This document shows, one piece after another, positions 18,433 to 27,474 of a stretch of DNA of 38,462 bases; positions within the stretch are counted from its first letter, which is position 1, and each line of letters starts with the position of its first letter. This stretch comes from Akkermansiaceae bacterium (lineage in GTDB: Bacteria; Verrucomicrobiota; Verrucomicrobiia; Verrucomicrobiales; Akkermansiaceae): positions 1-38,462 of the forward strand of contig JANXMQ010000235.1 of NCBI GenBank assembly GCA_025354565.1. The letters run 5' to 3'. The translations under genes and the position numbers were made by a program. The notes below the pieces were generated by a model. The model saw only the letters and a program-made list of their open reading frames with translations. It made no database searches and had not been told where the DNA came from.

Positions 18433-18505
18433 GGGGCGTTAGCTCAGTTGGTAGAGCACTTGCATGGCATGCAAGGGGTCAGCGGTTCAAATCCGCTACG
18501 CTCCA
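18433..18505 (+). tRNA. tRNA-Ala (anticodon GGC)
   Basis: A complete cloverleaf of 73 nt: acceptor GGGGCGT with ACGCTCC, D-arm GCTC-AGTTGGTA-GAGC, anticodon stem CTTGC/GCAAG with loop ATGGCAT (anticodon GGC), T-arm AGCGG-TTCAAAT-CCGCT, discriminator A. CCA is not encoded. The T-loop has A where the downstream partial copy has G. Its 3' end is the left attachment site of the integrated element. Confidence 0.97.
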
Positions 18506-18508
18506 CTT
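18479..18508 (+). repeat. attL: 30-bp tRNA-Ala 3'-end attachment repeat
   Basis: These 30 bp (T-arm, acceptor arm and 3 bp beyond) recur at 23884-23913 with one mismatch (A18489 against G23894). Direct repeats of a tRNA 3' end bracketing an integrase gene mark an integrated element. Confidence 0.92.
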
Positions 18509-18584
18509 CTTTGATTTTCAATGACTTACGTTTTTTTGGCCTGCTGGGTGTGACCTAAACTGTGTGCTACTTATTTCCGGGCAT

Positions 18585-18617
18585 AAAAATACCGCCACCC
18601 TGCTTCCAAGGTGGCGG
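18585..18617 (-). terminator. Terminator of the element's last gene
   Basis: The 8-bp stem CCGCCACC (18592-18599) with GGTGGCGG (18610-18617), 10-nt loop, is followed on the minus strand by TATTTTTA. It lies 33 bp past the small gene's stop codon. Confidence 0.75.
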
Positions 18618-18650
18618 CGTCCCGACCGGTGATGAACGGCACCAGAAATT

Positions 18651-19010
18651 TTAGCCTGCGAAGGCGTTGCGGTTGAGGATACGATGCACGGTAAAATTGT
18701 GCCTTGTTGGCGTCGAGTATGCCCGCGCTGTTGGCTTGCCTGACTGAGCAACCTCCTGCGCGGCCTGCCTGACTATTTGGCGGACCGTCTCCAAGTCGAT
18801 CCTTGGCGCGGCCTGTTTAGGCATGTGGACGGGCGCGGCCTTGTGGACGGGTGCGGCAAGTTTGCGTTTCACGATGGCATTTCCTGCCGAGAGGTGGTGC
18901 GCAGAAATCTGTTCCGCCGTGGGGCTGGTCTTGCGAGATTCTTGCAGCTTGCGAGCGATGATGGCATTGCCATCGTGCATGGATTGGTCGTGGATCTGTT
19001 TTGCGTTCAT
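18651..19010 (-). CDS. Small element protein with internal duplication, function unknown
   Basis: This 119-residue basic protein starts at ATG 19010 (MNAKQIHDQSMHDGNAI); the longer frame uses a TTG. It contains two versions of one motif: QIHDQSMHDGNAIIARKL and QISAHHLSAGNAIVKRKL, each about 18 residues and separated by about 14. A Pro/Ala/His linker and a helical stretch (LETVRQIVRQAAQEVAQ) follow. It is the last gene of the element, downstream of the palindrome cluster and followed by a terminator. The duplicated motif may bind DNA or a partner protein. No known family is recognised, so no function is assigned. Confidence 0.65.
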   Translation of the reverse strand: MNAKQIHDQSMHDGNAIIARKLQESRKTSPTAEQISAHHLSAGNAIVKRKLAAPVHKAAPVHMPKQAAPRIDLETVRQIVRQAAQEVAQSGKPTARAYSTPTRHNFTVHRILNRNAFAG

Positions 19011-19327
19011 CGGGACTGATTCAATCAGGCGTTTCAATTTTAAACAAGCGTTTAAATCGGTCGTTGCGTTTTAAGGTTTATTTTTTTATGTGCAGGTTTT
19101 CCTAACACCCGGACACAACCTAAGTCCTTTATTATCAACGGATAGATTCCTTGATGCCCGGTAGAGGGGGTAGGGCAGGGCTTGACGGGGGAGGCCTTGG
19201 ATGAGTGGCGTTTTGAATCTGTCTCATAATTCCAGATGTATATAGATGTGAGATTATGAGACAACGGCCTTCCCTCCGTCTCATAATAGTTTTGAGACTA
19301 TTATGAGACTACGAGAAAACCTTGTGG
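19011..19327. other. Intergenic control region of the element
   Basis: This 317-bp stretch separates the ATPase stop from the small gene's start. It holds the GTCTCATAAT palindrome cluster (19221-19309), an AT-rich tract at 19040-19090 with TTTAAAC repeats, and a G-rich patch at 19161-19200. An origin of replication, an operator for the small gene, or both, would fit here. Confidence 0.55.
19221..19309. repeat. Four half-sites of GTCTCATAAT in two inverted pairs
   Basis: GTCTCATAAT at 19221-19230 is inverted as ATTATGAGAC at 19253-19262. GTCTCATAATAG at 19278-19289 is inverted perfectly as CTATTATGAGAC at 19298-19309, around an 8-nt centre. A further TGAGACTA occurs at 19293-19300 and 19304-19311. 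Evenly repeated, identical 10-12-nt half-sites near replication genes are typical of iterons or multi-operator control regions. The outer pair encloses 22 bp, the inner pair 8 bp. Confidence 0.8.
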
Positions 19328-20452
19328 CTAAAAGGGTTTGGCGCGGTCCCAGCTTCCGTCGGTGCCTTGAATTATAGCGCCCTTTTGTTGGAGTTCCTTT
19401 GTCAACCTGTAGAACGTGGGCTTCGTGATTCCATGCTCATCGTCGGCACGCTTGCGCCATGCTGGTTTTGATGCCGCTGGAAGCAGTTCAAGCAGGGCGT
19501 CGGGACTCACTTCGGGCTTACGGCCAAGCTTGGATCGGCTGGTTGCCATGATGGAATCTTCGTGGTGAACGATGCAAGAAGTGATCTCCTTCCCCCTGCG
19601 GTCGATTCCAAGAACTACGGTCTTGAGGGAAAAAGGCATTGATTCACCGGCTGGCATGTCCCGCTGTTTAGTGACTCGCACGGTGGAAACCGTTTCGCCC
19701 TCGGGCCGGGTAACCTCGATCTCAGTATCCACGGCAGCGCGTAGCGATGAGTGCCCGCGTGCCCCTCGGGCTTCGTCCTTGCCACAATGATGAACTACTG
19801 CGACATGCGCCCCGGTGGCGGCGCGTATGGCGTCGATTGCAGACACCGCCGCCGTCATGTCTTGCCCGCTATTTTCGTCGCCGCCTGCCATCGCTCGGGC
19901 AAGGGTGTCGAGAATGACGAGACGGCAAGGCATGGCGCTTTCAGCGGCGGCTTGCTTCACGGATTGCGCCAGTCTGGCAGCGTGCCCGCGTTCCAGTAGG
20001 GACACAGGAGCGAAGCAGAAAAACAACGGTGCATCCTCGGGCAAGCGCCCTTCCCGTTTCAGTGCCTCAATCCGATTGCGGACACCGAAAGCCCCTTCAA
20101 GCGCGACATAGACAACCGCGCCTTGGTCAACTTGGAGTTCATCGCGGAAATCCACGCCAGTCGCCACACAAACGGCGAGGTCGAGAACCCAGAACGATTT
20201 CCCGCAGTTGCTCGGGCCATAGATTACGCTCGCTCCGCCTTCCGTTAGGAGAGACTCCACAAAGTCGGCAACCACGGCCATCCCCGAAGTGAGTCCGGCG
20301 CGTGTGATTGGAAATCCCTCGGGCTTGGCCTGCGGCGCGACTGCCACTGGCGACTGGATCGGCTCGGCACTCAGGACGGCAGCGCGTAGGGCTTCCCGGC
20401 CTGCGGTATTGAGAATGGCGCGGGCGTCTTTTGCTAGGGTGGCGTCACTCAT
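19328..20452 (-). CDS. RepA/RecA-like ATPase with C-terminal winged helix (element replication)
   Basis: This 374-residue protein starts at ATG 20452 (MSDATLAKDARAIL), overlapping the primase stop by 8 bp. A longer frame adds 66 Arg/Pro-rich residues that shadow the primase gene. It has Walker A GPSNCGKS (79-86), Walker B LVILDT (Asp about 182), and HVAVVHHCGKDEARGARGHSSLRAA (quoted in parts), as in hexameric RepA-type helicases and RecA-fold AAA ATPases of phages and plasmids. The C-terminal ~70 residues form a likely winged helix (ITKPTFYRLTKELQQKGAI). It probably acts as the element's replicative helicase with the adjacent primase. Confidence 0.85.
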   Translation of the reverse strand: MSDATLAKDARAILNTAGREALRAAVLSAEPIQSPVAVAPQAKPEGFPITRAGLTSGMAVVADFVESLLTEGGASVIYGPSNCGKSFWVLDLAVCVATGVDFRDELQVDQGAVVYVALEGAFGVRNRIEALKREGRLPEDAPLFFCFAPVSLLERGHAARLAQSVKQAAAESAMPCRLVILDTLARAMAGGDENSGQDMTAAVSAIDAIRAATGAHVAVVHHCGKDEARGARGHSSLRAAVDTEIEVTRPEGETVSTVRVTKQRDMPAGESMPFSLKTVVLGIDRRGKEITSCIVHHEDSIMATSRSKLGRKPEVSPDALLELLPAASKPAWRKRADDEHGITKPTFYRLTKELQQKGAIIQGTDGSWDRAKPF

Positions 20453-21428
20453 GGCTGGCGGTTCCCTTCCATGTGAGGATTTCCGCCGCGTGCCCTTTGA
20501 GAAGCTCGGCAACTTTCGCGGTGGCGGCTCGACCTGGCGGATCGGCATCGAAACACAAGACAACCCGCTTCCCCCGGAATAGCGGTGCCCAGTCCCTCGG
20601 AAATGACGTGCCCGGTGACGCCACGCAAGCGGCGGTGCCATCGTCTTCAAGTCCGGCTTCTATCAAAGCCATGCAGTCGCTCTCGCCTTCGGTCAGATAG
20701 ACAGTGCGGGTGTTCGCCTTTACCCACTCCAAGCGCCACGGGCCGAGTGCCTTTCCGACGATCCACCGGAAACGGAACTTGCCGGACGGGTGCGGGTTCC
20801 TCCATTTCAATCCATGCGAATAGGCGTAGCAAAGCCATCCATCGGCAAGGCCAAGCCCGGAGCTTCCCCATGAAGCCAAGCGGAGAGTTTCGCGGTCGAG
20901 GCCAAGGCTTGCGGCGATGTCGTCAACGATGGGTTCGCCGGCGTGGAAGGCATCGGAGAATGCGAGTCTTGCGGCGTGAACGGTTTCCCGCTCGCCATCG
21001 GATAGAACGAAAGGCGGCTCGGGTTGCATGGCGGGCCGTGGCGGTGCCGTGGCGGGCCTTGTGGCGGTTCCTGCGGTCGCCTGTGGCAGATAGAGGCCAA
21101 GGGCGGCGGCAACGTCGGTAACGGCCTCGGGGAAGGTCGAACTACGGCCTAGCCACTGACTGACGGCGAACACGTCGCCGGTGAATCCGCACGGGAAGCA
21201 ACCGCATGTTTCGTGATTGGTGCCGAAAACTGCGAAGCTAGGGGCGCGGTCGTCATGGACGGGACACCGACCGACAAGGCGGGTGACATTCCTGCGGAGT
21301 TCTACGCCACGGGCGGCGAGGTAGTCGGGCAAGCGGTGGCGCATGGCTTCCAGTGTCTCTGAATCAATTCTGCGACGGTCGGGGATAGGTTTGTGTGAAT
21401 GATCTGGCGGCTTGATTTGGATGTTCAT
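20445..21428 (-). CDS. DNA primase with CHC2 zinc finger and Toprim domain (element-encoded)
   Basis: This 327-residue protein has a CHC2-type zinc-binding domain (Cys55 and His58 in GRCPVHDDRAPSF; Cys77 and Cys80 in CGCFPCGFTGD), a middle region (about 140-230), and a Toprim domain: Glu247 in VYLTEGESD and Asp294/Asp296 in VLCFDADPPGR. Those residues bind the catalytic metals. It lacks the DnaB-binding C-terminal domain of host DnaG, as expected of phage, plasmid and satellite primases. Its stop overlaps the start of the ATPase gene, so the two are translationally coupled and likely form one replication module. Confidence 0.9.
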   Translation of the reverse strand: MNIQIKPPDHSHKPIPDRRRIDSETLEAMRHRLPDYLAARGVELRRNVTRLVGRCPVHDDRAPSFAVFGTNHETCGCFPCGFTGDVFAVSQWLGRSSTFPEAVTDVAAALGLYLPQATAGTATRPATAPPRPAMQPEPPFVLSDGERETVHAARLAFSDAFHAGEPIVDDIAASLGLDRETLRLASWGSSGLGLADGWLCYAYSHGLKWRNPHPSGKFRFRWIVGKALGPWRLEWVKANTRTVYLTEGESDCMALIEAGLEDDGTAACVASPGTSFPRDWAPLFRGKRVVLCFDADPPGRAATAKVAELLKGHAAEILTWKGTASHE

Positions 21429-21518
21429 TTTTGTTCATGTTAGAAGTTAGTGTATCATTAAAGCATCTTGCTGCCGCTGCATCGAGTTGTGTAAAAAAAC
21501 TGCGCCCGCTTTTATTCG

Positions 21519-22121
21519 TTAGATAACAGGCACTAACGGAAATTTGATCTCTGCCACGCGGGCGGCGGCTTCGGAAAAGGCTTGTTCATCCGGCGCTAGC
21601 TCGAATCTGCGAACGGCGGCACGGGCGATTTCTACTGTCGCTTCTGCATCCTCCGCCGCTAGCTCGATGCGTTCACGTTCCTGATAGATTTTGTAACGGT
21701 CCGTCTTGGATGCAAAAAGATTGATGGTGATCTCAGCGGCCTGCTTCAATTTTGCCTCGATGAATCCCGGTTGGGCTTTGGCGCGTTCGGCGATCATGAC
21801 ATTAAGGATTTCGCAAATCTCAGGTGCGTTATGTTGCAGGTATGATTCTGCAGCGGCACGTTGCCTCGGCTCAATAGCCCATTCGCGAAACTCTTCGATT
21901 GCTTTTCGAGCTTCGGTTAGGTCAAGTCGGGCGCGGATACGTGCGGTGGCATCGTTGCCGATTGGCTCAGCAACCCTTCGCTCACAATCGGCGGAAAATG
22001 CTTCGAGTTGCGCCTTTTCCGTGACGGGTGCGAGTCTTGCGGCGTTTAGCGCGTTGGTATAGTTTGCGATTTCTTTTGATGGTTTCATGGTCATTGTTTG
22101 TGTGGTTAGAGTTAGAATCAT
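21519..22121 (-). CDS. Coiled-coil protein of the element, function unknown
   Basis: This 200-residue protein is almost wholly charged and helical, with long Ala/Glu/Arg/Lys stretches (KIYQERERIELAAEDAEATVEIA in the middle, quoted in parts), so a coiled coil is likely. Its ATG overlaps the stop of the upstream HTH gene (ATGA at 22118-22121). Internal Met codons at residues 10 and 12 are alternative starts. A 90-bp gap separates it from the primase gene. I do not recognise a family. Its position between excisionase-like and primase genes suggests an accessory replication or DNA-binding role, by inference only. Confidence 0.7.
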   Translation of the reverse strand: MILTLTTQTMTMKPSKEIANYTNALNAARLAPVTEKAQLEAFSADCERRVAEPIGNDATARIRARLDLTEARKAIEEFREWAIEPRQRAAAESYLQHNAPEICEILNVMIAERAKAQPGFIEAKLKQAAEITINLFASKTDRYKIYQERERIELAAEDAEATVEIARAAVRRFELAPDEQAFSEAAARVAEIKFPLVPVI

Positions 22122-22339
22122 GCGAGTTCCCGCGCCTCACATTCCGCTAGGAATTGGCGGATCGTGGGAACGTGATAGAGCCTTTTGCCGTAACCTGCGC
22201 CGGGTTGCTTGAGTGACAGTGAACGGATCGTCCCAGCCTTCCTTAGATTGAATAAAGGTGTGTGGGTGATGCCGAAATTGCGGGCTACGTATTTTTCGTC
22301 CGCCCACTCGGCTTCTTTATTTAGTGTTTTTTCTTTCAT
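22118..22339 (-). CDS. AlpA/excisionase-like helix-turn-helix protein
   Basis: This 73-residue protein has a MerR/AlpA-like winged HTH layout: WADEKYVARNFGITHTPLFNL (first helices, quoted in part: KYVARNFGITHTPL), then a wing region (TIRSLSLKQPGAGYGKRLYH) and a final helix VPTIRQFLAEC. Small proteins of this kind serve as excisionases or activators of integrase in tRNA-integrated elements. It lies next to the integrase gene but is separated from it by the integrase terminator, so it probably starts the second transcription unit. Confidence 0.75.
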   Translation of the reverse strand: MKEKTLNKEAEWADEKYVARNFGITHTPLFNLRKAGTIRSLSLKQPGAGYGKRLYHVPTIRQFLAECEARELA

Positions 22340-22435
22340 CGGCAGGATAAAGGGACACGTTTTTCTTATGTCGAGATGTTTTTCCAGTTTTACCTAACTC
22401 ACACGTTTTCAGTGTATTGAAGCGCGTTGATATAC

Positions 22436-22462
22436 AAAAAAGCCCGCCAGAAATGGGCGGGC
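22436..22462 (-). terminator. Terminator of the integrase gene
   Basis: GCCCGCC (22442-22448) and GGCGGGC (22456-22462) form a 7-bp GC stem, followed on the minus strand by six T. It lies 33 bp past the integrase stop. It separates the integrase from the downstream gene block. Confidence 0.88.
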
Positions 22463-22494
22463 TTCATGTTTTTTTCCAAGGCTGGAAGGTCTTT

Positions 22495-23745
22495 TTACAG
22501 GCTCGGCAGTTTTGCGATAGCCTCGCGCAATGCCGATTCGTCAGCGTGACTGTAAATCTGATGGCTTTCTCGGGTAGAATGACCCGTTAGAGACATGCGG
22601 TCTTCTTCACTTACACCAGCGTTCCGCAACCAACTTGTGAAGGTGTGGCGGAGACTGTGGAAGCCCCGCTCGTATGTGACCCTGCCAGCCCCTCTAGTCT
22701 CGCCCGCTTCGATGTCGCGGGACGGTTTGCCGCGATCCACGCTAGCGGCCTGCATGACCTTGTTGAACGTCTGAGAAAGCCCGGCACGGTCGCCGATTTT
22801 CAGCTTTGCGAGACTTGGAAAAACCGGGGCGTTCGGGGTATCGTCCGCGACTGGAGCGGCGAGCAAATAAGCGAGCAAGTCTGATTGAATCGGTATGCGG
22901 ACTTCCCGTTTTTTCTTCTTGGTCTTAGATGGAACCAGCGTGATACGTTTCGCTTCGAGGTCCACCGATTGCCAAGAGAGTTTTGAGGCATCGCCAAGCC
23001 GCAGTCCTGTAAATGCGGCTGTGAGAATAAGCCCGCGCCATTCCTCGCTCGGGGCGTGCTTCATGAGCAAGGCAACCTCTTCACCCGTGAACGGCTTCCG
23101 GTCGAGGCTGTCGCTAGTGTCGATAACATCGAGTGAAGTGAACGGATTGAACGAAACTAGACCTTCGCGAATCGCGGCACGAAACACCCCGCCCGCGTCC
23201 TTCGTGTAAGCTAAGACGGTTTTACCACTTCTCCCGGCATCCTGCAAACCCTCCCGCCAGCGGCGAGCGTCCTGCGATGTGAGGCTTTCCAGCGGACGCT
23301 TGCGCCGCTCGTCGCCAAGCCATGCAAGCAAAGCGTCGGTGTGGCATTTGTATCTCGCCATCGTCGCCTTGCTAGAATCTCGGGACTTCCTGCGAAGCCA
23401 TTCAATCGCCCAAGATTCAATCGTCCACTCTTCGAGAATTTCCCCCGTCGCTAACTGAAGGAGTTTTGAAAGGTATCGGCGAGCGGTGGGTGCCGTGAAC
23501 GTCTCGCGCTCGATCTCGGCGACGGCATCGGCCAAGATGAGTTTTGCCCGTTGCGCTCGGTCGCTTCCAGCGGCCATGACGGCCTTGCGGTTCCGTTCCA
23601 ATTCATCGGCGAACTGCTGAGCCAATTTCTTGTTCGAGCATCCGGTGGACTTTCTGACTTTTGAAACCTCGCCCGTCTTCGGGTCAGTTAGATAGAACTG
23701 ACATTGCCAAATTTTGCTTTCCGGTCGTTTGTTAATACTAGCCAT
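22495..23745 (-). CDS. Tyrosine recombinase / site-specific integrase of the element
   Basis: This 416-residue integrase has an N-terminal arm-binding region (1-60), a core-binding SAM-like domain (about 100-200) and a catalytic domain with Arg249 (FTGLRLGD), a Lys in the strand after it (TKKKKREV), His363 and Arg366 (HSLRHTF), His389 (TGHS) and the nucleophile Tyr398 (HQIYSH). All residues needed for strand exchange are present, so it is probably active. It is transcribed away from the right attachment site, which is about 140 bp upstream of its start, and has its own terminator. It integrates the element into tRNA-Ala. Confidence 0.96.
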   Translation of the reverse strand: MASINKRPESKIWQCQFYLTDPKTGEVSKVRKSTGCSNKKLAQQFADELERNRKAVMAAGSDRAQRAKLILADAVAEIERETFTAPTARRYLSKLLQLATGEILEEWTIESWAIEWLRRKSRDSSKATMARYKCHTDALLAWLGDERRKRPLESLTSQDARRWREGLQDAGRSGKTVLAYTKDAGGVFRAAIREGLVSFNPFTSLDVIDTSDSLDRKPFTGEEVALLMKHAPSEEWRGLILTAAFTGLRLGDASKLSWQSVDLEAKRITLVPSKTKKKKREVRIPIQSDLLAYLLAAPVADDTPNAPVFPSLAKLKIGDRAGLSQTFNKVMQAASVDRGKPSRDIEAGETRGAGRVTYERGFHSLRHTFTSWLRNAGVSEEDRMSLTGHSTRESHQIYSHADESALREAIAKLPSL

Positions 23746-24126
23746 ATTTTTCGGGATTAAGTCGGTTTTTCGTTAGGACTGTGTCCAGACTGTGACCTAG
23801 TTTTGCCATCCTTGCAAGTTTTTACTATTCTGATAGTGCTTAAAACAAGGGTTTTCATTGATCTAGCAAGGGGCGATTTCTTTTCAGCGGTTCGAATCCG
23901 CTACGCTCCACTTATTTTATGCTGTGCGTTAAGAGCAAGTAAAGCGCCCGCCCAGCCATTGAGTTGCGCGAAAGATCGCTACTCGTTGGCAATTTCACAA
24001 GTCTCCCAATAATTTCGCCCTGCAATTGCGGCGAGATGGATGATTGTCTGAAGCCTTGAGAATCAATGATATTCAAAGAGGGATTCAAGTTGGCACGCAG
24101 GGTGGTTTGACGGGCGTAGCCACAAA
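23746..24126. other. Integrase upstream region, right attachment site and flank
   Basis: This stretch holds the integrase promoter region, repeats of the ACTGTG/TGTGACCTA type at 23778-23799 (also at 18549-18566 by the other end), the right attachment site at 23884-23913, and 213 bp of host flank with no convincing gene. Confidence 0.6.
23884..23913 (+). repeat. attR: partial tRNA-Ala copy, right end of the element
   Basis: It repeats 18479-18508 with a single mismatch at position 23894 (T-loop TTCGAAT here, TTCAAAT in the intact tRNA). Only the T-arm and acceptor half are present, so no functional tRNA is encoded. Confidence 0.92.
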
Positions 24127-24534
24127 GTGCTTGGATATTCTGTTGAGGCCACGATTGAACTGACCATACCCGACTACCATAATCCCCATAAACTACCGAA
24201 AATTGTCGGCAGTCTAGCCGCAGCAATCGCCCTGTTAGTGCTTGGCGCATGGACTTATCAACTCACCAGCCGCAAGGGGATGATCATCACCACCTTCTTC
24301 GGCAGCTTTGGTTTGTTGTTCGCGGCTCACCAGCTTCACGTCACGCCTGCGAATGATTGGCCCGTTATTCTGCCCTTTTTCTCTGCCATGGTCTTCGGCG
24401 GACGTGGCTGTGCCATGTGGTGGCGGTCCCGCAAAGAAAAAGAACTCCGGCTGCCAGCTCTTCTACTGCTCATCGGCACCTGTGCTGCCTTGGTCGCGAC
24501 ATTTGCTGCGATTTTGAATCATGGAGCGATTTAA
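24127..24534 (+). CDS. Small integral membrane protein, four helices
   Basis: This 135-residue protein has about four membrane segments: IVGSLAAAIALLVLGAWTY, GMIITTFFGSFGLLFAAH, WPVILPFFSAMVFGG and ALLLLIGTCAALVATFAAIL. The start is uncertain: GTG 24127 is used here, the frame is open back to 24070, and no ATG exists near the beginning. Its stop codon overlaps that of the opposing ROK kinase gene inside TTTAAA (24531-24534). It lies just outside the integrated element, on the host side. I do not recognise the family. Confidence 0.6.
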   Translation: MLGYSVEATIELTIPDYHNPHKLPKIVGSLAAAIALLVLGAWTYQLTSRKGMIITTFFGSFGLLFAAHQLHVTPANDWPVILPFFSAMVFGGRGCAMWWRSRKEKELRLPALLLLIGTCAALVATFAAILNHGAI

Positions 24535-25466
24535 AGCGCTTCCAAACCTAACACCGCTGCGCCAATGATACCGGCTTCGTGGCCAAATGCGGCCGCTTTC
24601 ACTTGCAGATGGTCTTTGAATGGTCCGGAAAGCTGGGCGAAAAGATGTTTCTTGATTGGACCGAAAAGCACCTCGCCCGCGCGTGCGACGCCGCCGCCAA
24701 TGATAATCGCCCCGGGATTGAGCAGCCAGCAGCAGTTCATGGTCGCCGTGGCTAACAGCCGCCCCACACGATCCCATTGTGCCAGCGCGATGGGATCACC
24801 TTGTTGAGCCGCCGTGGCCAGAGCCCCGGGGCTGCAATCCTCATGTGGCATCTGAATGCCGGCCGCTTGGTAAGCCTCTCGCGCCGAGGCTGTGATTTCC
24901 CGGTTGCCGACGTAATCTTCTAACGCACCGAGGTTGCCATAGTGACCGGGAATGCCCTGCCAGTCGATGGATGTTTGGCCGATTTCCCCTGCACCAAAGC
25001 AGGCTCCACGGACCATCCTGCCATTCGCGATGATGGCCCCGCCTACGCCGGTGCCCAAGGCTATGAAAATGACATCTTCATACCCGCGGCCCGCACCGTG
25101 CTTCCACTCGGCCAGGGCCATGCACTTCGCGTCGTTATCAACCATGACGGGAAGACCGATTTTTTCCCGAAGAATCTTTTTGAGGGGGACCTTCTCCCAT
25201 CCCTTAACATTCGTTAGATTGTGGACCAGACCTTCCTTGAAATTGACGAAGCCAGGCATACCCACACCGATTGTGGATATTGCCGGATGCCTCCCCCGTA
25301 AATCCTCCACCGTGCGAACCATCGCTGCAATCAGCTCCTCACGGTCGAGAAATTCCTGAGTCGCAATCGGCGGTGCCAGATCGATAACATGGCTCTGGGA
25401 AACCACGGCAATTTTCACAGATGTTCCGCCGAAGTCGATTCCAAGGGTCAGGGGGCTGTCGCTCAT
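24531..25466 (-). CDS. ROK family sugar kinase (glucokinase-like)
   Basis: This 311-residue protein starts at ATG 25466 (MSDSPLTLGIDFGG); the same start is kept in the partial duplicate at 27869. It has the phosphate-binding DFGGTSVKIA, the catalytic Asp in VMVDNDAKCMALAEW and GTGVGGAIIANG. The usual ROK zinc motif (CxCGxxGCxE) is replaced by GHYGNLGALED, and the expected His of GEIGH is Gln (GEIGQTSID). It therefore belongs to a zinc-less ROK branch. It likely phosphorylates glucose or a related hexose with ATP. Its ancestral partner was coaX, as the duplicated junction shows. Confidence 0.9.
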   Translation of the reverse strand: MSDSPLTLGIDFGGTSVKIAVVSQSHVIDLAPPIATQEFLDREELIAAMVRTVEDLRGRHPAISTIGVGMPGFVNFKEGLVHNLTNVKGWEKVPLKKILREKIGLPVMVDNDAKCMALAEWKHGAGRGYEDVIFIALGTGVGGAIIANGRMVRGACFGAGEIGQTSIDWQGIPGHYGNLGALEDYVGNREITASAREAYQAAGIQMPHEDCSPGALATAAQQGDPIALAQWDRVGRLLATATMNCCWLLNPGAIIIGGGVARAGEVLFGPIKKHLFAQLSGPFKDHLQVKAAAFGHEAGIIGAAVLGLEAL

Positions 25467-25573
25467 TTCGAATGCGAGACCTATCTGATTCGCCTGGAAT
25501 GGCACGTTTTTTTCATCGGCCGGCGTTACAAAAACACGCGGGCGGCGACTTGGCGGAGGCCGTCGAGGGTGAT
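25317..25573 (-). repeat. Copy A of the coaX-3'/ROK-5' duplicated junction
   Basis: On the minus strand this holds the last ~16 codons of a coaX gene with its stop (25573-25526; reads NITLDGLRQVAARVFL), a 59-bp spacer, then the start of the intact ROK gene. It matches 27708-27975 with roughly a quarter of positions different. The coaX portion is a remnant without the rest of the gene. Confidence 0.85.
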
Positions 25574-25648
25574 ATTTGAGAAACCGAGGGTAGGGGAGCA
25601 GCGGTTTGCCATGAACGGGCATGCCAGAAACTAAAGGCTTTGGAATCT

Positions 25649-25664
25649 TGGCACGCTTGTTGCT
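25649..25664 (+). promoter_or_regulatory. Sigma-54 promoter of amt1
   Basis: TGGCACGCTTGTTGCT matches the sigma-54 consensus TGGCACG-N4-TTGCW at every fixed position, with the correct GG-GC spacing of 10 bp. The expected start of transcription is about 25675, giving a leader of about 150 nt before ATG 25828. Nitrogen-regulated ammonium transporters commonly use sigma-54. Confidence 0.88.
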
Positions 25665-25827
25665 TAAACGCCTTTTGATTTGCTGATGGCTCGCGCCAGT
25701 CAGCAGATCAAGGTTTTTGGTGTGCCTTAACCAGCCGTCTTTAGCGGTTCGTTAACAGAACAACAATAAAACAGACACTGCATATCCAACCAACAGAAAC
25801 AACAACACCGACTAACGAACAAATAAT

Positions 25828-27474
25828 ATGAAAAAATTCAGCTTGGAAAGATTCGTTGAAAAAATGCGAGATCCAGAAGAACGAAAGTTCTTCTACGCAA
25901 TTTTCGGCGGAAAAATGCTCGGGGTCTTAACGGCCTTCATCATTATAACCGTCATCTCGATTTTTATCGGTGGCTCGGCAGTGAAAGTAAATGCTCAGGA
26001 TAAGCCGGCGGAACCCGCTGCTGCGGTCACGTCAGCGCCTGATGCCTCCAAACCGGTAGCGGCAACCCCTGCCACCACTGAGGTTGCTGCGCCCGCCACC
26101 CCTGTTGCTCCTCCTGACCCGCCTTATTGCAGTCCTATCAACACCATGTGGGTGTTGGTTGCCGCGTTCTTGGTGTTTTTCATGCAAGCTGGCTTCATGT
26201 TTCTGGAAGCTGGATTTTCTCGTTCCAGAGAGTCGGTGAATGTCATGCTGGAAGGACTGGTTGATACCGCACTTTGTGGTGTTCTCTTCTATTGCTGGGG
26301 TTTCGCATGGATGTTCGGCCACGGCAACGGATTCATCGGGTCCGGTGGTGCTGACGGGAAAACCTGGTATTTCCTGCAAAACCTCCCTGACACCTATGAG
26401 ACGACCGGTGTCGCGACTCTTGCGATCTTCCTCTTTCAATTCGCCTTCGCGGATACCTGCTCGACCATCACTTCCGGTGCCATGGTTGGCCGCACCGGTT
26501 TCTGGGGCGACCTATGGTACAGCCTCGGTGTCAGCGGATTCATTTATCCAATTTTCGGTCACTGGGCCTGGGGCCCGGATGGCTGGCTGAACACCATCGG
26601 TTCCGCGGGTCATCCTTTTGAATGGCTCGGATGCGCGTTCCATGATTTCGCCGGTTCTACAGTGGTTCATACGATCGGCGGCATGGTTGCCCTAGCTGGT
26701 GCCATTGTTCTTGGTCCTCGTCTTGGCCGTAAGTTCAAGCGTGATGGAGGCGGGCCGATGCCTGGCCACAACATGCTCATCGCAGCGGTAGGCACTGTCA
26801 TCCTCTGGTTCGGTTGGTATGGATTCAACCCAGGCAGCACGCTCTCTGCCATGGACTACATTGGCATTTCTCGTGTATCGACCAACACGACTCTAGCGGC
26901 TGTTGCAGGTGGTCTCACTGCGCTCTTCTTCGTGTATCCCCGCTATAAAAAGTGGGATTGCGGCATGACGCTCAATGGTCTTCTTGCCGGACTGGTTGCT
27001 ATCACCTGCCCATGCTACTGGGTCTCGCCCACCGGTTCCCTTGTCATCGGTGCTGTTGCTGGTATTTTAGTTGTTTTGGGCACTGACCTGCTGGAATACC
27101 TGCGCATTGATGATCCATGCGGTGCATTTCCAGTGCATGGTATTTGTGGAATGTGGGGCACATGGAGCCTAGGACTCTTCGCAACCGGACAATTCGGTGC
27201 AGCAACTTCGACCGGTGCGTCCAATATCACCAGCGGACCAACTGCCAATGTCCTGACCGGGTGGTTTTATGGTGGCGGTTACAATCTACTCATTGCTCAG
27301 CTTATCGGTAACCTTGCCATCGGTGTCGGCGTTTTCATCGTGGGGATGATTCTGATGTTGCTCGTGAAAGCGACAGGAACACTCCGGGTTTCCGAGGAAG
27401 GCGAACGTGAAGGTCTTGATATCCACGAGCACGGTGCCGAGGCATATCCGGAAATGACAACGTCACATCGCTAA
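25828..27474 (+). CDS. amt: Ammonium transporter with long N-terminal extension (Amt1)
   Basis: This 548-residue Amt/MEP/Rh protein has the family landmarks: MWVLVAAFLVFFMQAGFMFLEAG (quoted in part), FADTCSTITSGAMVGR, and the pore twin histidines His281 (STVVHTIGG) and His437 (FPVHGICGMWG). The N-terminus is unusual: a charged lead of about 28 residues, a hydrophobic segment (MLGVLTAFIIITVISIFIGG), a possible cleavage site VNA-QD, then a Pro/Ala-rich linker of about 45 residues before the first transporter helix. A sigma-54 promoter precedes it and a strong terminator follows. No glnK gene is adjacent. It moves ammonium across the inner membrane. Confidence 0.94.
   Translation: MKKFSLERFVEKMRDPEERKFFYAIFGGKMLGVLTAFIIITVISIFIGGSAVKVNAQDKPAEPAAAVTSAPDASKPVAATPATTEVAAPATPVAPPDPPYCSPINTMWVLVAAFLVFFMQAGFMFLEAGFSRSRESVNVMLEGLVDTALCGVLFYCWGFAWMFGHGNGFIGSGGADGKTWYFLQNLPDTYETTGVATLAIFLFQFAFADTCSTITSGAMVGRTGFWGDLWYSLGVSGFIYPIFGHWAWGPDGWLNTIGSAGHPFEWLGCAFHDFAGSTVVHTIGGMVALAGAIVLGPRLGRKFKRDGGGPMPGHNMLIAAVGTVILWFGWYGFNPGSTLSAMDYIGISRVSTNTTLAAVAGGLTALFFVYPRYKKWDCGMTLNGLLAGLVAITCPCYWVSPTGSLVIGAVAGILVVLGTDLLEYLRIDDPCGAFPVHGICGMWGTWSLGLFATGQFGAATSTGASNITSGPTANVLTGWFYGGGYNLLIAQLIGNLAIGVGVFIVGMILMLLVKATGTLRVSEEGEREGLDIHEHGAEAYPEMTTSHR

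Follow-up and report, generated by a model that had tools for sequence, protein, structure and literature searches.

A tRNA-Ala gene in an Akkermansiaceae bacterium (GenBank assembly GCA_025354565.1, contig JANXMQ010000235.1, positions 1 to 38,462; this whole 38,462-nucleotide stretch is the window) is adjoined by a compact set of integration and replication genes, raising the question of what kind of mobile element this is and by what means it would travel. The preliminary description read it as a satellite or integrative plasmid that replicates itself and borrows transfer from a helper phage or a conjugative element. Our analysis suggests that window 18479-23917 is likely a minimal phage satellite, which would be excised by the integrase it encodes, replicated by the primase and RepA-type helicase it carries and, by prediction, packaged by a helper phage.

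Ends, insertion site and genes of the element

Direct repeats that copy the 3' end of the tRNA-Ala gene mark both ends of the 5.4-kb element. These were first noticed as a 30-mer, which is identical at 29/30 positions, and the full repeat extends to 32/34; the second-best match to the 34-mer anywhere in the window on either strand was 19/34. The repeats enclose six genes, encoding an integrase, an HTH protein, a 200-aa protein, a primase, a helicase and a 119-aa protein. The features are listed below.

18433..18506, plus strand: intact tRNA-Ala(GGC), the attachment-site gene (ARAGORN; Rfam RF00005, 67 bits)
18479..18512: att repeat, tRNA side (32/34 identical to 23884-23917)
18591..18618, minus strand: terminator-like hairpin and T run, 3' of the 119-aa gene (hairpin search)
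18651..19010, minus strand: 119-aa gene (ORF start possible at 19037; small family at the tail end of relatives)
19220..19309: two palindromes, arms both GTCTCATAAT, candidate origin or operator (repeat count, DNA folding)
19328..20452, minus strand: RepA-type helicase/ATPase (AAA_25), 374 aa (PF13481, 2e-37; RSF1010 RepA, 1g8y, 7e-9)
20445..21428, minus strand: CHC2 zinc-finger/Toprim primase, 327 aa (PF01807, 4e-11; PF13155, 9e-11)
21519..22121, minus strand: 200-aa gene (pairwise homologues in L035, 1e-4, and L036, 2e-6; in L239, 8e-24, in a profile search, some profiles of which were built from position-grouped genes that match them by construction)
22118..22339, minus strand: HTH gene, 73 aa, possibly AlpA/excisionase-like (same-place homologues in L041, L174 and L177)
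22439..22465, minus strand: terminator-like hairpin, 3' of the integrase (hairpin search)
22495..23745, minus strand: tyrosine integrase, 416 aa (PF00589, 8e-17; phrog_1, 1e-52)
23884..23917: att repeat, integrase side, a tRNA-Ala 3' fragment (32/34 identical to 18479-18512)

Base composition did not clearly set the element apart from its surroundings. The left flank (NUDIX-tRNA-Ala) was conserved at 19/29 same-genus loci, and at none of the 29 tRNA-Ala loci was the element present within 1.5 kb. Right-flank DNA matched none of the same 29 loci. A kinase gene 0.6 kb off on the right flank is common across the genus, and no tRNA was found in the scanned stretch near this kinase at 12 same-genus loci. 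An empty site defined by way of the right flank was therefore rejected, and the case for insertion comes from the left flank. At 6 of 7 further same-genus loci examined, tRNA-Ala fragments adjoin integrases related to that of the window.

Most of the gene content claimed earlier was borne out. The integrase is intact and retains R249, R366, H389 and Y398, which we take to be the tyrosine-integrase catalytic motif. The primase and the RepA-like ATPase are coupled, with matches to PF01807, PF13155, PF13481 and 1g8y and an 8-nt overlap between the end of the primase gene and the start of the ATPase gene, and primase residues C55, H58, C77, C80, E247, D294 and D296 were invariant in 20 aligned sequences. 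The 200-aa gene shares 4 nt with the end of the HTH gene. The two genes called unknown, of 200 aa and 119 aa, had no family match in Pfam or PHROG. A profile search placed the 119-aa family at 7 places in 5/254 genomes; the protein is predicted to be helical (mean pLDDT 72, pTM 0.26), and its fold matched no viral model at E 0.001 or better. The absence of transfer and capsid genes also held, as Pfam and PHROG found no terminase, capsid or conjugation family and no Psu, Sid or Delta match among the six genes. The same searches gave no match to terS, sid, ppi or relaxase in window genes, and PADLOC recognised no defence family in 10 proteins.

The label "AlpA-like" was not confirmed, as the window HTH gave no match in Pfam or PHROG. 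HTH genes in the same place in four relatives matched HTH_17 and phrog_66 (excisionase) (L036, 2e-6 and 3e-6; L239, 5e-4 and 2e-5), phrog_66 (L035, 5e-4) or HTH_17 (L221, 3e-9), and these four are tied to the window HTH by gene position and not by a direct search match.

The palindrome cluster noted earlier was also recovered. Four copies of GTCTCATAAT lie at 19221-19309 and none elsewhere in the window, with 0.03 expected, and DNA folding of the cluster gave z = -5.7. The cluster may serve as an origin or operator. Terminator-like hairpins were no commoner than in shuffles (5 found vs 7.8 expected).

Related elements and their packaging genes

Five repeat-bounded relatives of 7.8-8.3 kb carry the same primase: L174 (tRNA-Lys, repeats 38/38, 7.84 kb), L175 (tRNA-Phe, 52/52, 8.24 kb), L179 (tRNA-Thr, 39/39, 8.31 kb), L221 (tRNA-Arg, 50/53, 7.88 kb) and L041 (20/20, 8.33 kb, at a site without a tRNA). 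With L239 the six bounded relatives span 7.8-8.4 kb; these similar lengths are suggestive only, because the stretches searched for repeats were hand-chosen to cover the tail and the integrase, for the most part no farther than 8 kb from the primase, and longer elements would escape them. A single MAG of 12.6 Mb, with 6% contamination, is the source of three of the six (L041, L221 and L239), and L222, on the same contig as L041, was counted once. No end repeats were present in the stretches searched at L036, L177, L178, L188, L189 and L220, several of which are cut by contig ends, nor in a second repeat search at L178; the L177 integrase is adjoined by a tRNA-Ala fragment. A second relative, L034, lies in the window's own genome. 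Islands of 16-19 kb also use integrases related to that of the window, so the integrase is no marker of satellites. A CRISPR reading of the repeat arrays of relatives was rejected, as each "spacer" has its own inverted repeat by eye and the unit is confined in genome G404 to three contigs of such elements.

A small terminase gene (TerS) was recognised in 3/5 of the primase-bearing bounded relatives and a capsid gene in 1/5. The TerS genes belong to two PHROG families, that of L174 matching PF03592 (1e-8) and phrog_51 (1e-18) and those of L179 and L041 matching phrog_57 (2e-12 and 5e-7). The capsid gene of L041 is HK97-fold (PF05065, 7e-7), and its model matched HK97-fold shells, SaPI1 and SaPIbov5/Ccm among these. 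It is rare, with 7 proteins including L041's own vs 235 for the primase. TerS and capsid were the sole packaging genes recognised among the L041 proteins scanned, with no large terminase, portal or protease. TerS was not recognised in L175 or in the ~580 bp between helicase and tRNA-Leu of L034. Neither the L041 capsid in IMG/VR nor the TerS of L041 and L278 in phage records found a match.

Two candidates picked by eye gained no support: ters2, adjoining the small gene in L035, L221 and L239, resembles a Nu1-type TerS but had no Pfam or PHROG match, and a 688-aa ORF of L277 taken for a tape measure had no phage match. A capsid-bearing prophage in the host genome was rejected, a PF05065 search there giving no match.

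A probable phage satellite and its alternatives

A satellite is favoured because related elements carry TerS or capsid genes, and the element probably represents a minimal form within a family of satellites of the Akkermansiaceae, with packaging by a helper phage predicted. The earlier picture of a self-replicating, tRNA-integrated, transfer-borrowing element fits, with the relatives favouring its phage side; in the proteins scanned, no relaxase or secretion family passed its cut-off to go with a conjugative helper. Helper infection would turn on the run of HTH, 200-aa, primase, helicase and small genes, and the integrase together with the HTH protein would excise a circle. The helicase may load at the palindromes, after which the primase would prime. 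A helper TerS or packaging signal, perhaps with the 119-aa protein, could then direct the DNA to the capsids of the helper, where it may be packaged in concatemeric form, as PICMI115 is. Against the satellite reading, the window element itself lacks TerS, a capsid-size or other known hijack gene, and a gene overlapping the integrase. The primase, moreover, has no close match in IMG/VR (best-segment identity at most 39%), and the rarity of the L041 capsid gene, its lack of IMG/VR matches, the lack of phage matches for the L041 and L278 TerS, the absence of a PF05065 capsid from the host genome and the origin of three bounded relatives in one MAG also weigh against it.

The main rival, though we consider it unlikely, is a decayed satellite, a shortened 8-kb form that has lost TerS, the tail genes next to it and the gene overlapping the integrase, and that can no longer move by itself. 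It takes this place because the window element has no TerS and lacks the gene that overlaps int by 4 nt in L041, L177, L276 and L281. Its length of 5.4 kb vs 7.8-8.4 kb for the six bounded relatives points the same way, as does the absence of f108 and ters2, a pair of genes that L221 and L035 carry between their helicase and small genes, as judged in the profile search in which some profiles were built from position-grouped genes that match them by construction. However, all six genes are open, the checked catalytic residues, palindromes and att repeats are present, and TerS absence recurs, since none was recognised in L034 or L175 either.

A bolder form of the satellite reading, which we hold to be rather doubtful, is a separate family of the Akkermansiaceae in which one replication core is joined to exchangeable packaging tails, namely TerS from either of two families, a gene resembling TerS or a satellite capsid, its length near 8.2 kb set by a small capsid. 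The window tail would have shrunk to the 119-aa helical protein, a new packaging-redirecting factor that would be enough on its own to get a replicon of 5.4 kb packaged in the particles of the helper.

We regard it as improbable that the element is an integrative plasmid or a mobilisable island that a conjugative helper transfers via an unrecognised oriT. In favour of this, the helicase is similar to RepA of the mobilisable plasmid RSF1010, and oriT sites are hard to see. On the other hand, no relaxase or secretion family scored above cut-off in the window genes and relatives' proteins scanned (49 proteins, 52 Pfam scans), the primase had no match in 72,556 plasmid records, and phage packaging genes recur among the relatives; with neither relaxase nor plasmid match, an integrative plasmid was set aside.

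A prophage remnant keeping only integration and replication genes is the least probable reading: the helicase does match 144/50,697 phage records, but phage matches to the primase number only 6, none above 36% identity, the compact gene set recurs at tRNA genes for Ala, Lys, Phe, Thr and Arg as well as at a site without a tRNA, and no large terminase, portal or tail family exceeded the curated cut-off among the relatives' and window proteins scanned. According to the preliminary description, longer forms equipped with capsid and tail genes would reveal a decayed prophage. The longer forms have TerS and one lone capsid gene, but no tail, portal or large terminase was found in them, which suits satellites better.

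Comparison with described satellites

Known satellite families have their hosts among enterobacteria, Gram-positive cocci, vibrios, cyanobacteria and actinobacteria, and a literature search of titles and abstract openings gave no report of phage satellites in Verrucomicrobiota; one paper that mentions both states that it excluded satellites from its analysis. The window element combines an integrase, att repeats and its own replication genes with no virion gene set, as satellites in general do. P4-like satellites are tRNA-integrated, with an HTH regulator, their own replication and Psu, Sid or Delta genes. The window element shares the first three traits, but has no Psu, Sid or Delta match, and its CHC2/Toprim primase and its helicase are separate proteins. 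Capsid-forming PICIs have their own set of capsid and packaging genes; L041 shares TerS and a capsid gene with them, but no large terminase, portal or protease was recognised in its proteins scanned, and the window element has no capsid gene. PICIs are also larger than the window element. In the parts of the published accounts drawn on here, PICIs and SaPIs join an integrase, a regulator, a primase-helicase and their own TerS, as the relatives do (PMC11389934), and Ccm of SaPIbov5 resembles the lone capsid homologue of L041 (PMC8569155); the window form differs in having no TerS by Pfam or PHROG, whereas a PICI is marked by a TerS of its own or by packaging redirected through cos.

Among described satellites, the phage-inducible chromosomal minimalist islands (PICMI) of vibrios come nearest (Barcia-Cruz 2024, PMC10803314). 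As far as the portion of that account used here goes, both have about six genes in 5-7 kb, and the PICMI order int-alpA-up1-prim, with iolg left out, equals the window's int-HTH-gene-primase. Within the same portion, PICMI and the smallest form here both have direct repeats at their ends and no TerS or capsid-remodelling gene was found in either. The PICMI hallmark there is int-alpA-prim, of which the integrase and primase are clear in the window and the HTH has no AlpA match of its own. The iolg gene, which that text reports to be required for PICMI115 excision (PMC10803314), may be likened to the integrase-overlapping gene of four relatives, and the window element lacks it. By the same partial account, PICMI integrates at fis in Vibrionaceae, in contrast to tRNA-Ala in a member of the Verrucomicrobiota, and differs from the elements here in that the window has a separate RepA-type helicase and relatives carry TerS and, in one case, a capsid gene.

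If the satellite reading is right, the poorly known phages that infect Verrucomicrobiota have satellite parasites too, and the primase, RepA helicase and 119-aa gene would be markers for detecting them. The relatives would then form a natural series, with capsid-bearing elements at one end and the six-gene form at the other, in which to test how few genes suffice to hijack a tailed phage.

Layout of the element and its site of insertion

To define the element, its end repeats and genes were mapped within the window. The 34 bases at 23884-23917 repeat the last 28 bases of the tRNA-Ala gene plus six more (32/34 identical), and the next best match to this repeat anywhere in the window was at most 19/34. 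Six genes lie between the repeats, every one on the minus strand, and the parts and their order are as follows:

18433-18506, tRNA-Ala(GGC) gene
18651-19010, minus strand, 119-aa gene
19328-20452, minus strand, helicase
20445-21428, minus strand, primase
21519-22121, minus strand, 200-aa gene
22118-22339, minus strand, HTH gene
22495-23745, minus strand, integrase

The HTH and 200-aa genes overlap by 4 nt and the primase and helicase genes by 8 nt. Primase residues C55, H58, C77 and C80, presumably zinc ligands, and E247, D294 and D296, which we take to be the Toprim acids, were invariant across 20 aligned sequences. The helicase was of the RSF1010 RepA kind (1g8y, 7e-9), and two palindromes with GTCTCATAAT arms sit between it and the 119-aa gene. 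Terminator-like hairpins were found 3' of the integrase and of the 119-aa gene, such sites being no commoner than in shuffles, and base composition did not clearly set the element off from its surroundings. With the paired repeats, six genes and palindromes in place, the repeat-bounded element at tRNA-Ala with an integrase, HTH, primase and helicase that had been proposed in the preliminary description is real.

Insertion was assessed by comparing tRNA-Ala loci. A 121-bp query across tRNA-Ala matched 73 of 73 same-genus genomes (E 0.001 or better), and the best 29 loci, one per genome with the window's genome excluded, were compared together with flanks of at most 1.5 kb. The NUDIX-type gene upstream of tRNA-Ala in the window was kept in 19 of the 29 and element DNA matched in none, so the left flank is common at these loci and the element is missing there. 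Support for an insertion comes from this left flank; the window's right flank matched none of the 29 loci within the same distance. As 23921-26000 was beside tRNA-Ala in 0/29, this stretch to the right of the element may contain an earlier insertion or rearrangement. Seven further loci were picked from partial matches to the 121-bp query. A tRNA-Ala fragment lay just upstream of a window-related integrase in six of the seven (L276, L277, L278, L280, L281 and L282), and both ends were found in three (L276, 7.2 kb; L277, 16.3 kb; L278, 19.2 kb), indicating that tRNA-Ala is a hotspot of this integrase group, larger islands included. The larger islands with related integrases span L277:265-16635 and L278:266-19454.

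Distribution of the primase and length of related elements

Of 7,998 candidates scored against the primase, 235 proteins reached E 0.001 or better, and the best 120 of the 235 were 62 to 100% identical, the window's own included. At E 1e-30 the primase profile was found in 19/386 genomes of the order, 13/260 of the family and 1/387 sampled across the phylum, the last being the window's own, in draws that overlap. Matches better than 1e-140 in the order search all fell within the window's family. No match was found in 72,556 plasmid records, and 6 of 50,697 phage records matched at 36% identity or less. Two IMG/VR searches returned 2 and 33 loci with best-segment identity of 39% or less, and this absence of close matches probably says little because virus finders lean on virion genes.

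End repeats were sought in 13 loci (12 distinct) and detected in six distinct ones, the window and the relatives L174, L175, L179, L221 and L041, the L041 repeat being the weakest (20 bp only, no tRNA). A seventh repeat-bounded locus, L239/L245, had a 38/45 repeat at tRNA-Thr and a topoisomerase-like protein in the primase position (L239:16155-17087; phrog_6247, 4e-43). From start to start of the repeats the window element measured 5,405 bp and the relatives 7,838 (L174), 8,238 (L175), 8,311 (L179), 7,882 (L221), 8,334 (L041) and 8,434 bp (L239/L245). L041, L221 and L239 share the same-genus MAG G404 (12.6 Mb, 6% contamination), so that binning limits their independence. The six relatives differ in genes yet all have 7.8-8.4 kb between repeats; this spacing may reflect a packaging limit, in a sample biased towards these lengths by the choice of stretches searched and with three of the six from one MAG.

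Packaging genes, capsid gene and small gene

A recognised terminase small subunit (TerS) was present in three of five primase-bearing bounded relatives: L174 (Pfam Terminase_2 1e-8, above cut-off; phrog_51 1e-18), L179 (phrog_57 2e-12) and L041 (phrog_57 5e-7). Family searches recognised none in L175 or L221. Among 50,697 phage records the L174 TerS matched 26, several annotated as terminase small subunit, and the L041 TerS none. L041 also carried a capsid gene (PF05065 7e-7, above cut-off) that matched 11 of these records (best 27% identity; ten annotated capsid or head protein, one unannotated) and, itself counted, seven proteins in the protein set. Its AlphaFold model (mean pLDDT 70, pTM 0.72) resembled HK97-fold shells, including those of SaPI1 and SaPIbov5 with Ccm, and likewise encapsulins, which have this fold too. 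In the tRNA-Ala islands, L278 had a homologue of the L174 TerS (3e-26) with no phage match at 0.001, and the best phage match to one L277 protein was the Akkermansia phage Chantilly head maturation protease (36%). L278 also holds a 2,611-aa ORF. Relaxase, secretion, large terminase, portal and tail families gave nothing above curated cut-offs when 49 proteins, those of relatives included and part of the small ORFs among them, were put through 52 Pfam scans.

The window's 119-aa gene was weakly similar to the final gene in L035 and in L221, and its profile found 18 proteins and, in genomes, seven places in 5/254. Genes of this type come after a gene that we call ters2 in L035, L221, L239 and L240; by eye ters2 looks like a Nu1-type TerS, and it had no family match. 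In L241 only a 108-aa-type gene was seen ahead of the 119-aa-type gene, L242 was cut at the contig start, and in the window the 119-aa gene stands alone behind the helicase. The protein was predicted with low confidence to be helical, and its predicted structure matched no viral model at the E 0.001 cut-off.

Four relatives have CRISPR-like arrays of 2-5 repeats, with a spacing of 57-66, close to their tail end:

L221:7379-7640, CRISPR-like array
L041:15279-15499, CRISPR-like array
L035:9870-9960, CRISPR-like array
L239:12010-12110, CRISPR-like array

Each array 'spacer', read by eye, contains its own inverted repeat. The array pattern had 9 matches in G404, all on three contigs carrying such elements, and none in genome G006 or the window's own genome. 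These arrays could be origin or packaging sites.

Comparison with PICMI115 and related elements of the same genome

The closest tested system to the window element is PICMI115, a phage-inducible chromosomal minimalist island of Vibrio. As described in PMC10803314, PICMI115 spans 6,110 bp and carries int, iolg, alpA, up1, prim and up2 as its six genes; homologues of terS, sid and ppi were not found in it, it is packaged as an 8-copy concatemer, and iolg is required for its excision. On this description the order int-HTH-gene-primase is equal in the two, iolg excepted. A gene overlapping int by 4 nt, as iolg does, was found in L041, L177, L276 and L281, whereas the window element, and likewise L174, has no int-overlapping gene. 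Given the described requirement for iolg, this absence speaks against present mobility of the window element. The fis site described as a PICMI hallmark was also absent, making the element no PICMI by that criterion, and the evidence does not place it among the PICI or P4-like satellites. In the cycle that we envisage, the integrase and HTH protein would excise the element, the helicase would open the palindromes, the primase would then prime, and a helper phage would package the DNA. As to the earlier suggestion of a satellite or integrative plasmid, the satellite half held up better. We class the element as a minimal representative of a probable satellite family in the bacterial family of the window.

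Two other loci in the window's own genome resembled the element. L034:278-3678 (G000:C127) has an HTH gene, then a primase 84% identical to the window's, a DUF5906-type helicase and about 580 bp to a tRNA-Leu, its integrase end lying beyond the contig. L037:6887-12584 (G000:C142), with an 845-aa fused primase-helicase, an HTH gene and a distant integrase, is perhaps a third related element of this genome.
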